Assembly (NCBI GenBank): GCA_017303975.1
Contig: JAFLBG010000036.1
Span: 1 to 39,493, forward strand
DNA length: 39,493 nt
Source: Bacteroidota bacterium
GTDB taxonomy: Bacteria > Bacteroidota > Bacteroidia > JAFLBG01
Direction of reading: 5' to 3'
This document shows, piece after piece, positions 35,496 through 39,493 of this stretch (positions are counted from its first letter, which is position 1; each line of letters starts with the position of its first letter). Below the pieces are notes generated by a model that worked only from the letters and a program-made list of their open reading frames with translations, ran no database searches and was not told the origin of the DNA. Made by a program: the position numbers and the translations under genes.

Positions 35496-36392
35496 ATGAG
35501 TAACCACCACACCAATCAAATTTTAGTTCCGGTTGATTTTTCTGAGCAATCTCTTATTGCTATAGACCAGTCCTACACTTTAGCTCGCGAATACAATGCC
35601 GAGATTACATTGTTGTATGTTATTGAAGATTCAAATAACCTTTTCAAGTTTTTTTCTAAAGAACAAGACGAAGGAATGAAAAAGGAAATTCAAATTCAAT
35701 TGGATAAGGTAGCGGATGATGTGGAAAAGAAAAGCAAGCGAAAAGTAAACACCATGATCGCTAAAGGGCGCGTGTACGAAAAGGTATCCGAAATAGCCGA
35801 AGAAATAAATGCGGTATTCATTATAATGGGAACAAGTGGGGGTTCATCTTCTGCACTTAAGAAAAAATTTATTGGCTCAAATGCACTACGAGTAGTTAGA
35901 GAATCAAAAGTTCCTGTAATTTCTATTAAAGGAAAAAATCATAGAGCCGGATGCAAAAACATTGTGTTACCACTCGATTTAACAAAAGAAACTAAAGAAA
36001 AAGTAACCAAAGCCATTGAGCTTGCTAAAGTATTTGGAGGATCTACCGTGCGTGTGGTTTCTGTGTTATTTACAACAGATGAGTTTATTGTAAATCGCTT
36101 AACCAGACAATTAGCGCAGGTTAAATCTTTTATCGAAAAATCGGATGTAAAATGCACTGCCGAAATTATTAAAGGAATAAAAGGAGAAGAAACGCTTGCT
36201 CAAAACGTAATTGATTACGCCAAAAAAGTAGAAGCCGATTTAATTATGATTATGACGCAGCAAGAAACTGATTTTACAGAATTTTTTATCGGTTCGTCAG
36301 CACAGGAAATGATTCAAAATTCAGAAATTCCTGTTTTGAGTATTGTTCCCACTCCTAAAAAAGATACTATTTCACCAATAAGACCTTACTAA
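35496..36392 (+). CDS. Tandem-domain universal stress protein (UspA family) 1
   Basis: The 298-residue cytoplasmic protein holds two UspA domains: residues 5-147 from 'NQILVPVDFSEQSLIAIDQSYTLAREYNAEITLLYVIED', and 155-288 from 'KNIVLPLDLTKETKEKVTKAIELAKVFGG'. The first carries 'IIMGTSGGSSSALKKKFIGSNALRVV', which keeps the G-2x-G-9x-G-S ATP-binding pattern. The second has 'IMTQQETDFTEFFIGSSAQEMI', lacking the first glycines, so it probably binds nucleotide poorly. Such proteins protect cells under stress and starvation, but the specific role here is unknown. It is followed after 56 bp by a homologous tandem gene. Confidence 0.92.
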   Translation: MSNHHTNQILVPVDFSEQSLIAIDQSYTLAREYNAEITLLYVIEDSNNLFKFFSKEQDEGMKKEIQIQLDKVADDVEKKSKRKVNTMIAKGRVYEKVSEIAEEINAVFIIMGTSGGSSSALKKKFIGSNALRVVRESKVPVISIKGKNHRAGCKNIVLPLDLTKETKEKVTKAIELAKVFGGSTVRVVSVLFTTDEFIVNRLTRQLAQVKSFIEKSDVKCTAEIIKGIKGEETLAQNVIDYAKKVEADLIMIMTQQETDFTEFFIGSSAQEMIQNSEIPVLSIVPTPKKDTISPIRPY

Positions 36393-36448
36393 AAATAGCT
36401 ATAAAATAAGTAGCTGTCTTTAGTTTAGCTAGTAAACAACAACCTGAT

Positions 36449-37333
36449 TTGAAAAAATTTTCAATTACACAGCTACTTATTCCAATTGATTTTTCGGAAA
36501 CTTCTTATTTGGCTTTAGAACATGCCATTTTTATGGCACGTTTATTTAAAGCAGAAATTATTCTATTGAACGTTGTAGAAAAAAACTGGGAAAATTTTTC
36601 GGTATTAATGCCGGAAATAAAAGTATTAGAGCCCTCTAAACTAGTGGATCAATTAGAACAAAAGCTGGAAGAAGTTGCAGATAGCATATTTGAAGAGCAT
36701 GGTATTAGATGCGAAGCACTTGTAACATCAGGGAGTATTTGCAACGAAGTAGTTACCATTGCAGCCGATAGAGATGTAAGCCTAATTGTGATGGGCACAC
36801 ATGGCATATCGGGCGTAGAAGAGTTTTTCTTAGGAAGTAATGCATATAAAGTTGTTACACGAGCGCAATGTCCTGTAATGTCGGTACAAGCTCATGCAAA
36901 AAAAATTGGATTCTCTCAAATAGTATTACCGATAGACAATTCTGACCACTCTAGACAGAAGGTAGCTCAAGTAGCCGTTTTGGCTAAAAATTATGGATCT
37001 ATAATTAACGTGATTGGAATTCTAAGTGAAAACGATGACATTGTAGATGAAAATAAATTGAGTATTAAAATAAATCAAATTGAAGCCTATTTTAAAGCCA
37101 TTGATATTGTTTGCAATACAAAGGTTGTAAAAGGCAAGAATCATGCAGCATTAACAATTAATTATGCAAACGAACTAAATGCAGATTTAATTGCTATAAT
37201 GACAGACCAAGACGATGACGGTATTTTCCTAAGTCCATATGCACAGCAAATTGTAAATCATTCTAAAATACCGGTATTGAGTATTACTCCGGAAGAGCAT
37301 CCGGAAAACATTCCTTGGGTGCATCCATATTAA
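36449..37333 (+). CDS. Tandem-domain universal stress protein (UspA family) 2
   Basis: The 294-residue paralogue of the preceding gene opens with a TTG start codon; no nearer ATG or GTG precedes the first strand 'ITQLLIPIDFSETSYLALEHAIFMARLFKAEIILLNVVE'. Domain 1 keeps the nucleotide-binding motif 'VMGTHGISGVEEFFLGSNAYKVV'. Domain 2 ('FSQIVLPIDNSDHSRQKVAQVAVLAKNYG') has only 'IMTDQDDDGIFLSPYAQQIV', a degenerate version. The same pattern, intact first and degenerate second domain, is seen in the upstream gene, which fits duplication of a whole two-domain gene. Probably co-transcribed with it. Confidence 0.9.
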   Translation: MKKFSITQLLIPIDFSETSYLALEHAIFMARLFKAEIILLNVVEKNWENFSVLMPEIKVLEPSKLVDQLEQKLEEVADSIFEEHGIRCEALVTSGSICNEVVTIAADRDVSLIVMGTHGISGVEEFFLGSNAYKVVTRAQCPVMSVQAHAKKIGFSQIVLPIDNSDHSRQKVAQVAVLAKNYGSIINVIGILSENDDIVDENKLSIKINQIEAYFKAIDIVCNTKVVKGKNHAALTINYANELNADLIAIMTDQDDDGIFLSPYAQQIVNHSKIPVLSITPEEHPENIPWVHPY

Positions 37334-37422
37334 TATATCCAATATCTACTAGGTAGAAACCAACATATATCATTTAACATTTATTAATTGATAGCACCTT
37401 ATTTTATTTGTAAATTTACTAT

Positions 37423-37797
37423 ATGAAGTTTGTGGCTTTAATATTATTAAATTATATCTGTTGGTTAACAATTCATCCATCGGTTGAACAACTTGCAAAA
37501 TATTTCAACAGAGTAGCTACTATTGAATCTTGTTGTTCCAATGAAGAAACAACTGAATCTTCAAACTGCGAAAAAAACAACGAAAACAAATCAAAAAGGT
37601 GTTGTAGTGGTGGCTTATGCAATAATCCATTTATGGCTTGTATGCCTTGTTGCGGGTTTCACAATGAAACTACCAACAGCCTCGTATTTACAACGAACAA
37701 CTTCGTTGAATTGGCTTTCCCTTACCCAAATATGCATATTCACAGTATAGCATTCAGTATTTTCCACCCTCCCAAATTAAATTGGCTCATCTGCTAA
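37423..37797 (+). CDS. Small exported Cys-rich protein (HYC_CC_PP-like)
   Basis: The 124-residue protein starts with a hydrophobic segment ('MKFVALILLNYICWLTIHPS', likely signal peptide or anchor). Eleven cysteines include the pairs Cys37-38, Cys60-61 and Cys76-77, and singles at 49, 66 and 73. The middle is Asn/Glu/Lys-rich and the end has a 'FHPPKLNW' Pro-Pro motif. This arrangement is like the small Bacteroidota proteins that NCBI calls HYC_CC_PP (Cys-Cys pairs and a C-terminal Pro-Pro, often near heavy-metal transporters), although the N-terminal His-Tyr-Cys is not seen, only 'NYIC'. It lies upstream of the metallothionein-like gene and the P1B ATPase. A weak 6-bp hairpin (37807-37830) follows. 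A second frame at 37523-37750 is a shadow. Confidence 0.65.
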   Translation: MKFVALILLNYICWLTIHPSVEQLAKYFNRVATIESCCSNEETTESSNCEKNNENKSKRCCSGGLCNNPFMACMPCCGFHNETTNSLVFTTNNFVELAFPYPNMHIHSIAFSIFHPPKLNWLIC

Positions 37798-37918
37798 TCT
37801 AAATTGCCACCTAAACAAGATTATAGGTGTTAGTTTATGAATAAATAATTAAGACCCATTATTCAACCACTATTCTGAATGGTTTAATAATAATTTATCG
37901 AATTTTAAAAAAATAAAC

Positions 37919-38146
37919 ATGAAAAAAATAGTTATTGGTGGATTTTCCGCCTTGTTAATATGCAGTGCAATTGTTTTTGCAGGCAATACATCCAAAAACA
38001 TTGCAATAACTGCAAACACATGCGATTGCAAGAATTGTATATGTGAAAAATGCACCTGCACATCTTGTGAAGAAAACTGCAAATGTGAAGAAAAGTGTTG
38101 TACAACAACTAATTGTTGTAGTGGCACCACACAGTGTTCTCACTAA
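37919..38146 (+). CDS. Exported metallothionein-like Cys-rich peptide
   Basis: The 75-residue protein has a signal peptide (residues 1-21, 'MKKIVIGGFSALLICSAIVFA') and a mature part of about 54 residues with 14 cysteines (35, 37, 40, 42, 45, 47, 50, 54, 56, 60, 61, 66, 67, 73), mostly as Cys-x-Cys and Cys-x2-Cys, plus a C-terminal His. This spacing resembles metallothioneins, which bind Cu, Zn or Cd in thiolate clusters, but it is not a classical SmtA or MymT and no aromatic residue occurs in the mature part. The signal peptide places it in the periplasm or outside, unlike cytoplasmic metallothioneins. It precedes a copper-type ATPase gene on the same strand, with tRNA-His and a bidirectional terminator between. 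Metal binding is inferred. Confidence 0.82.
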   Translation: MKKIVIGGFSALLICSAIVFAGNTSKNIAITANTCDCKNCICEKCTCTSCEENCKCEEKCCTTTNCCSGTTQCSH

Positions 38147-38150
38147 GTAC

Positions 38151-38190
38151 AAAACGAAAAAGAGAGGCAATAGCCTCTCTTTTTCGTTTT
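38151..38190. terminator. Bidirectional terminator between the Cys-rich peptide gene and tRNA-His
   Basis: Arms 38151-38168 and 38173-38190 form an 18-bp perfect stem with a 4-nt loop (AATA). A GAGAGGC/GCCTCTC core is flanked by A-rich and T-rich ends. It lies 4 nt after the + strand gene and 6 nt after the 3' end of the minus-strand tRNA. Confidence 0.85.
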
Positions 38191-38196
38191 ATTCAG

Positions 38197-38271
38197 GGTA
38201 ACCAATGGGGCTCGAACCCACGACCCTCAGAACCACAATCTGATGCTCTAACCAACTGAGCTATGGCTACC
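38197..38271 (-). tRNA. tRNA-His (anticodon GTG)
   Basis: On the minus strand the 75-nt gene folds into a standard cloverleaf. The acceptor has 8 pairs because of an extra 5' G (G-1) opposite C73, the identity mark of tRNA-His. The D stem GCTC/GAGC, anticodon stem TCAGA/TCTGA with loop TTGTGGT (anticodon GTG), and T arm GTGGG-TTCGAGC-CCCAT are all visible. CCA is not encoded. It is alone, with no neighbouring tRNA. Confidence 0.95.
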
Positions 38272-38370
38272 ATATTCGGATGCAAAGATATATAATTTTA
38301 ACAACATAAAAATAAAGATTTTACTTTTACGTTTTGTAGCTTTATAAGTCTACTAATTTTTTTCGGAATC

Positions 38371-39493
38371 ATGTCGAATTCAGCAGCTAAAGTAACCTTG
38401 CAAATTGATGGAATGGATTGCTCCAGCTGCGCGTTGACCATCACAAAAAAACTTCAAAAAAAAGGACTAGAAAATGTTACTGTTAACTTTGCCACAGGTG
38501 AGGCTCAGTTTAGCTTACCCCAAGATCAAAAAATTGGAACAATCATTACTGATATCAATAGCCTTGGGTACAGAGTTGTTGAGGAAAATATCAAAGAAAA
38601 TTTTTGGAATAAATATGGCACTCTTGCAAACAAGTTAATTTTTTGTACTGTATTTACCATTCCGCTGATGTTACACATGCTAATTCCGCATCCTATTTTA
38701 ATGAATCCGGAATTTCAACTGCTACTGACAATTCCGGTTATGATTGTTGGAATTATTCATTTTGGAAAAAGTGCATATAAATCAGTACTTACACTGGCAC
38801 CAAACATGGATGTATTAATTGCCATTGGCTCTTCATCTGCGTTCATTTATAGTTTGGCAGGATATGTACTTTATAAAAACACTCATTTAGTTCACAATTA
38901 CTTATTTTTTGAAACAGCTGCAAGTATTATCACACTTGTACTTTTAGGTAATTATATAGAACACAAATCGGTAAAAAAAACCACTACGGCCATTAAAGAC
39001 CTTACAGATTTAAAGCCGTTGAAATCTAAAAAAGTTACAGTCGTAAATGGCCTCGAAAACATCTCAGAAATAAAAACAGAAGACATTCGTATAAATGATG
39101 TTATACTTATAAATACCGGAGACAAAATACCTGTAGATGGCATTATAACAGAGGGCACGGGATTTGCGGACGAATCTTCGCTTACCGGAGAAAGCCTTCC
39201 CGTTCAAAAGCTTATAAACAGCACTGTTACAAGTGGCACAATTTTAATTGATGGATCTGTAAAAATAAAAGCACTAGCTGTTGGCGAAAACACTACGCTC
39301 GCAAAAATTATCGACTTAGTAAAAAATGCACAGCACGCAAAACCATCCATACAAAAGCTAGGCGATAAGATTAGCAATATATTTGTGCCTGCGGTACTTG
39401 TTATTGCGCTTGCAACTTTTTTCTTAAACTACTTTATTTTAGATAAAAGCGTACAGATTTCTGTCATGAATTCCATTGCCGTATTAGTAATTT
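38371..39493 (+). CDS. Copper-type P1B ATPase, N-terminal 374 codons (runs off right edge)
   Basis: This is a heavy-metal-transporting P-type ATPase. An N-terminal metal-binding domain carries 'IDGMDCSSC' (Cys17, Cys20). The predicted membrane helices are at about 85-105, 118-135, 147-166 and 178-196. The actuator domain has 'INTGDKIPVDGIITEGTG' and 'DESSLTGESLPV', with TGES at 272-275. A further helix begins at about 350. The usual next elements (CPC motif, DKTGT phosphorylation site) fall beyond the window edge, so metal choice (Cu, Ag or other) is inferred from the N-terminal domain type. The start ATG (38371) lies 99 nt after the tRNA on the opposite strand. The context of two Cys-rich exported proteins supports a metal-handling role. 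Confidence 0.88.
   Translation, partial: MSNSAAKVTLQIDGMDCSSCALTITKKLQKKGLENVTVNFATGEAQFSLPQDQKIGTIITDINSLGYRVVEENIKENFWNKYGTLANKLIFCTVFTIPLMLHMLIPHPILMNPEFQLLLTIPVMIVGIIHFGKSAYKSVLTLAPNMDVLIAIGSSSAFIYSLAGYVLYKNTHLVHNYLFFETAASIITLVLLGNYIEHKSVKKTTTAIKDLTDLKPLKSKKVTVVNGLENISEIKTEDIRINDVILINTGDKIPVDGIITEGTGFADESSLTGESLPVQKLINSTVTSGTILIDGSVKIKALAVGENTTLAKIIDLVKNAQHAKPSIQKLGDKISNIFVPAVLVIALATFFLNYFILDKSVQISVMNSIAVLVI

Follow-up and report, generated by a model that had tools for sequence, protein, structure and literature searches.

A candidate metal-responsive leader and an exported metallothionein-like peptide form a two-gene unit in a Bacteroidota genome

What links a short exported protein, a cysteine-rich peptide and a P-type ATPase that follow one another on the plus strand within 2 kb at the right end of the window, by which we mean the whole stretch of 39,493 nucleotides of Bacteroidota DNA analysed here? 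An earlier note, made from the letters alone, grouped the three genes as a single locus in which the peptide acts as an extracytoplasmic sponge for metal that the ATPase exports, with the 124-aa protein as carrier or sensor. All three reading frames, for the 124-aa protein, the 75-aa peptide and the N-terminal half of the ATPase, are where that note placed them (Table 1), and the grouping has to be redrawn, since the first two genes stand as a separate unit, with a terminator and a tRNA-His gene between them and the ATPase. Our reading, to which we give a probability of roughly 0.6, is that the two genes form a self-contained bicistronic unit in which a metal-responsive leader controls the synthesis of an exported, metallothionein-like buffer for thiophilic metal in the envelope.

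Table 1. Features of the two-gene unit and its neighbours at the right end of the window
Feature	Position	Strand	Remark
Promoter-like -7 box, TTTATTTG	37403..37410	+	20 nt before leader start; placed by eye
124-aa exported leader gene	37423..37797	+	CutF/CruR-like design; family without Pfam or NCBIfam name
Leader candidate metal motif CNNPFMAC, residues 66-73	37618..37641	+	CxPFxxC in relatives
Leader Pro-Pro, residues 116-117, candidate translation-arrest site	37768..37773	+	Pro-Pro in all 84 leaders
Intergenic region, 121 nt, candidate regulatory RNA	37798..37918	+	fold z = -1.47
75-aa exported metallothionein-like peptide gene	37919..38146	+	CxCxxCxCxxCxCxxC core, 14 Cys in mature part
Intrinsic terminator, perfect 18-bp stem, closes two-gene unit	38151..38190	+	RNA fold
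tRNA-His (GTG), convergent, outside module	38196..38270	-	between peptide unit and ATPase
P1B-1-type ATPase N-terminal half, neighbour outside module	38371..39493	+	HMA + E1-E2 domains

The 124-aa protein begins with what appears to be a signal peptide, a lysine followed by a hydrophobic run at residues 2-17 in a crude hydropathy test, and it matched no Pfam or NCBIfam model above the cut-off; the models for DUF6660 (PF20365) and HYC_CC_PP (NF047658) did not recognise it, nor did that for DUF2946 (PF11162), which reached one of 17 relatives weakly (0.0067). It is a divergent protein (22-30% identity to its relatives), and in a 17-member alignment the invariant positions are C37, C61, P69, C73, P116 and P117, with C66 nearly so. 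The cysteine motif lies 42 residues before the Pro-Pro, after which seven residues follow here and mostly two to four in relatives before the stop, and the C-terminal end reads FHPPK in the window and W-x-PP-K/E in most relatives, not RAPP. CutF-like leaders have been collected with filters of fewer than 150 aa, Pro-Pro within the 15 C-terminal residues, a signal peptide and a same-strand gene within 1000 nt, and such leaders are known from Bacteroidota, with their metal-transport neighbours classified by Pfam (PMC9973294). With its 124 residues, its Pro-Pro at 116-117, its hydrophobic N terminus and the peptide gene 121 nt downstream on the same strand, the window protein has the properties that these filters select.

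How widely is this design found? A sequence search with the protein gave matches in 37 of 395 sampled genomes of the class, its own included; a 17-member leader profile gave matches in 109 of the 395, and a profile from a narrower alignment returned five genomes already seen and one Lake Baikal MAG. Pro-Pro stands near the C terminus in every one of the 84 leaders inspected, at 42.8 +/- 1.8 residues from the cysteine motif in the 72 whose motif was readable automatically, and the cysteines are less strictly placed relative to the N terminus (sd 5.5). These 84 loci were drawn by leader similarity alone, and therefore what lies downstream of them is not built in. The next gene encodes an exported Cys-rich peptide (50-128 aa, gap 32-174 nt) at 31 of them, in 30 genomes and 12 family codes, compared with one of 561 other genes of the same loci, an ArsR false positive, once 37 further background rows that were leaders themselves had been set aside; the 75-aa reading frame is thus not a chance one, and its pairing with the 124-aa gene is conserved. 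The remaining leaders precede RND pumps (25), HMA proteins (14, in most cases with a TonB receptor next) and TonB-receptor-like genes (11), with three unassigned, and these neighbour types agree with those given for CutF-like proteins (PMC9973294). Loci with a Cys-rich peptide group together on the leader tree, where this label needs 3 changes versus 25 when the labels are shuffled, on a tree with many unresolved forks. The leaders before RND pumps were recovered by the same profile and match DUF6660, so that this family probably does the same job. At RND loci L160, L169, L172 and L188, among others, the gene directly before the CusA/CzcA-type RND gene encodes a DUF6660-type protein with the common spacing from cysteine to Pro-Pro, and these proteins are probably leaders too.

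Two described systems resemble the window leader most closely, and each differs from it. CutF, of cutFOG in Rhodobacter capsulatus, is likewise a short exported leader with a Cys metal motif and a near-C-terminal Pro-Pro that stands before a metal-homeostasis gene, but its motif is CxxxC instead of CxPFxxC-like and its target is a multicopper oxidase instead of an exported Cys-rich peptide (PMC9973294). CruR (bp2923 of Bordetella pertussis, DUF2946) is likewise a uORF-type leader with a long intergenic region, and its Cys motif also keeps a near-fixed distance from the terminal Pro-Pro, the CXXC-RAPP spacing of 45 being conserved to one or two residues; unlike the window leader it ends in RAPP, carries CXXC and belongs to DUF2946, and it controls a TonB receptor that is switched off by copper (PMC9426467). 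The overall design is also common to DUF6660 and HYC_CC_PP. Could the 124-aa protein nevertheless be an exported periplasmic metallochaperone, or a partner of the peptide, that works as a finished protein and not as a leader in cis? Its signal peptide and conserved cysteines would suit such a role, and partners are often encoded by gene pairs; however, the family precedes products as unrelated as RND pumps, HMA proteins, TonB receptors and Cys-rich peptides, the Pro-Pro sits beside the stop at a near-fixed spacing from the cysteines, and the similarly built CutF and CruR act in cis and are not detected as stable proteins (PMC9973294, PMC9426467), which makes the chaperone unlikely. The evidence favours a cis-acting nascent-chain metal sensor, so that of the two roles offered earlier, carrier or sensor, the second is preferred to the first.

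The peptide encoded by the second gene has 15 cysteines in all. It begins with a hydrophobic signal peptide, and residues 34-73 hold 14 of the cysteines, just as first described (14 in about 40 residues). Small, Cys-dense and rich in CxC and CC clusters, it resembles the bacterial metallothioneins SmtA/BmtA and MymT; known bacterial metallothioneins are mostly cytoplasmic, and the signal peptide sets this one apart from them. It matched no Pfam or NCBIfam model, those for metallothioneins included, and searches of the class sample, plasmids and genome contigs found no homologues, so that its proposed function is drawn from its composition and from the position of its gene. Structure databases gave weak hits to ribosomal eL40, which were judged compositional. 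The peptides found at the same position in other genomes begin alike (MKKI...VFAGNT in the window, MKKI...VFASGT and MKKI...VYAGNT elsewhere), and their cysteine parts vary freely between genomes with variable spacing, which is what a metal cluster, and not a disulphide fold, would lead one to expect. This bears directly on a second alternative, that the peptide is an oxidised, disulphide-rich product (a redox buffer, an antimicrobial or a surface peptide) and binds no metal. With its signal peptide it would reach an envelope in which oxidation of thiols is possible, but the variable Cys spacing among peptides at this position and the dense CxC and CC runs fit flexible metal clusters better and the other targets of the leader family are metal genes, and we regard this alternative as decidedly improbable. 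An exported metallothionein-like sponge, as the earlier note proposed, is still the best reading of the peptide.

A Cys-pattern scan of the 395 genomes returned mostly TGC/TGT repeats, together with cytoplasmic metallothionein-like ORFs and one exported metallothionein-like ORF, in genomes G005 and G088 (L088, 10006-10194, minus strand; L089, 8032-8220, plus strand). The latter encodes an exported 62-aa CxCxxC peptide with 12 cysteines and follows the gene of an exported HMA lipoprotein; in G088 both come after a gene of HYC_CC_PP, a related and leader-like family, and this set is a second kind of arrangement of a leader with an exported metallothionein-like peptide. Among the cytoplasmic ORFs, two that are CxC-rich (L082, 9868-9999, and L084, 10055-10294, both on the minus strand) directly follow a regulator gene whose product begins with an HMA-like KNMVCxRC stretch and ends like AraC, with a multicopper-oxidase-like gene next in L084. 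Another short one (L085, 9972-10097, plus strand; MNTCICTQCNCTQCNCKNC...) ends what appears by eye to be an arsenic operon of ArsR-, arsenate-reductase- and Acr3-like genes.

How might the leader act on the gene behind it? The promoter-like box in front of it has one mismatch to the Bacteroidota TAnnTTTG, and this one-mismatch form is the only one present; across the pair loci, the 120 nt before the leader contain TAnnTTTG in 18 of 31 cases, versus 18 of 310 random windows. The intergenic RNA of the window is mildly stable, and no hairpin spanning the stop codon, as a CutF-type stem-loop masking the next start would, was found there (p = 1.0). CutF itself has an obvious stem-loop at the end of its leader. 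Relatives show an excess of hairpins between the intergenic region and the last codons and stop of the leader (at p<=0.05 in 9/31 Cys-rich loci and 7/9 TonB loci), and this enrichment suits a CutF-type switch. A DNA alignment of the leader-end hairpins was highly gapped. It is thus from the relatives that we infer the hairpin step, which may differ in the window, where another mode, for instance a CruR-like Rho-dependent one, may be used.

At its other end the unit is sharply delimited. The stem-loop behind the peptide gene has a folding energy of -27.3 kcal/mol (z = -10) and U-rich flanks, and a terminator-like hairpin stands within 90 nt after the Cys-rich gene at all 31 pair loci, the window included and two of them weak, versus 14 of 180 random windows. 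Since this terminator and an opposite-strand tRNA-His gene intervene, the two plus-strand units are unlikely to share a transcript, and since the -7 box, leader, peptide and terminator are found in relatives, the unit consists of promoter, leader, peptide and terminator; we consider it likely that the two genes make up a unit distinct from the ATPase. Two tandem universal-stress-protein genes lie just upstream of the leader (35496-37333), and such genes were not found near relatives of the leader/Cys-rich pair.

The ATPase itself is as the earlier note had it, a plus-strand P-type enzyme whose N-terminal half combines an HMA domain (E 9e-11), with a Cys-x2-Cys site (CSSC), and an E1-E2 domain. 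It is cut because the window ends where its contig (C36) ends, and its C-terminal half is found at the start of contig C51 (L019, 2-1018), a join that rests on the 8 nt shared by the two contig ends, AGTAATTT, and on a frame that reads AVLVISCPCAMGLATPTAV across them; the other open P-type halves, on C23 and C41, form a pair of their own, so that C51 remains as the partner of the window ATPase. That second split ATPase, at the starts of C23 and C41 in the same genome, has a CcoI/FixI-like N terminus (CFHCGDDC...FCCEGC). The continuation on C51 was to be tested for CPC and DKTGT and carries both, together with GDGVND, N-x6-YN-x4-P and MAFSDVIVIGNSLLL, the last being the MxxSS motif with its second S replaced by D. 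By the subgroup rules of these ATPases, the motifs indicate P1B-1 and hence Cu+ export.

What speaks for one locus, with the 124-aa protein carrying metal between sponge and pump, is that three genes of metal type share a strand within 2 kb and that the last of them has P1B-1 Cu+ motifs. Besides the intervening terminator and tRNA-His, however, tblastn with both ATPase halves found no P1B ATPase in any of 30 relatives that hold the pair, in flanks of unequal size (mean locus about 11 kb). With linkage conserved in 0/30, the outcome that the earlier note had named as refuting, the chain from sponge to pump is not supported. Moreover, P1B ATPases load their metal from the cytoplasm, so that a sponge outside would not feed them. 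One locus is thus very improbable, and terminator, tRNA-His and missing linkage lead us to reject the ATPase as a dedicated partner; it is a separate gene, which may serve the same stress. Finally, the peptide might be a RiPP like the bufferins (Buf1/DUF2282, Buf2), which are likewise exported, Cys-containing, copper-binding and copper-buffering peptides with signal peptides (PMC12452194), but an MNIO (DUF692) enzyme has to modify their cysteines before they are exported. A search for PF05114 in the genome of the window, which is 99.8% complete, gave no match when two control genomes were positive, and the peptide gene is the last of its unit, all of which makes a bufferin extremely unlikely.

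We therefore return to the metal-responsive leader with its exported metallothionein-like peptide and consider how it might work. Genes, family, linkage, motif spacing and terminator are shown by computation; which metal acts, that it binds, that the ribosome pauses and which way the switch works are what we infer in the following scheme. The first gene would yield a short Sec-exported leader, and with its Pro-Pro at the active centre of the ribosome the Cys motif, which precedes it by about 42 residues, would just be leaving the tunnel. Metal, most likely Cu+, would bind the emerging motif and change the pause at Pro-Pro, and the altered pause would switch translation of the second gene, whose exported product, with 14 cysteines in its mature part, would chelate thiophilic metal in the envelope; transcription would end right after the peptide gene. 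The metal sensed and buffered is probably copper, and because the target is a sponge our guess is that the switch is turned on with metal, as for CutF.

CutF-like leaders as such are already known, and what appears new here is their pairing with an exported metallothionein-like peptide, of which we found no description in the open-access literature. A survey of RAPP/RGPP uORFs reported Cu-related uORFs to be absent from Bacteroidota (PMC12992588), a gap that may partly stem from the different terminal motif, and the Cys-rich peptides escape Pfam-based neighbour surveys because no model matches them. At about even odds, we would extend our reading to Bacteroidota as a group that possesses widespread, unannotated exported metallothioneins, encoded in two-gene operons and dosed translationally by a nascent-chain sensor with a W-x-PP-K/E arrest end. 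The bufferins, to our knowledge the exported copper peptides that have been described, need special enzymes; if our reading is true, a recurrent, exported and apparently unmodified Cys-rich peptide with its own leader would be another route to buffering metal in the envelope, and the leaders give a testable role to an unnamed family and to the related DUF6660.
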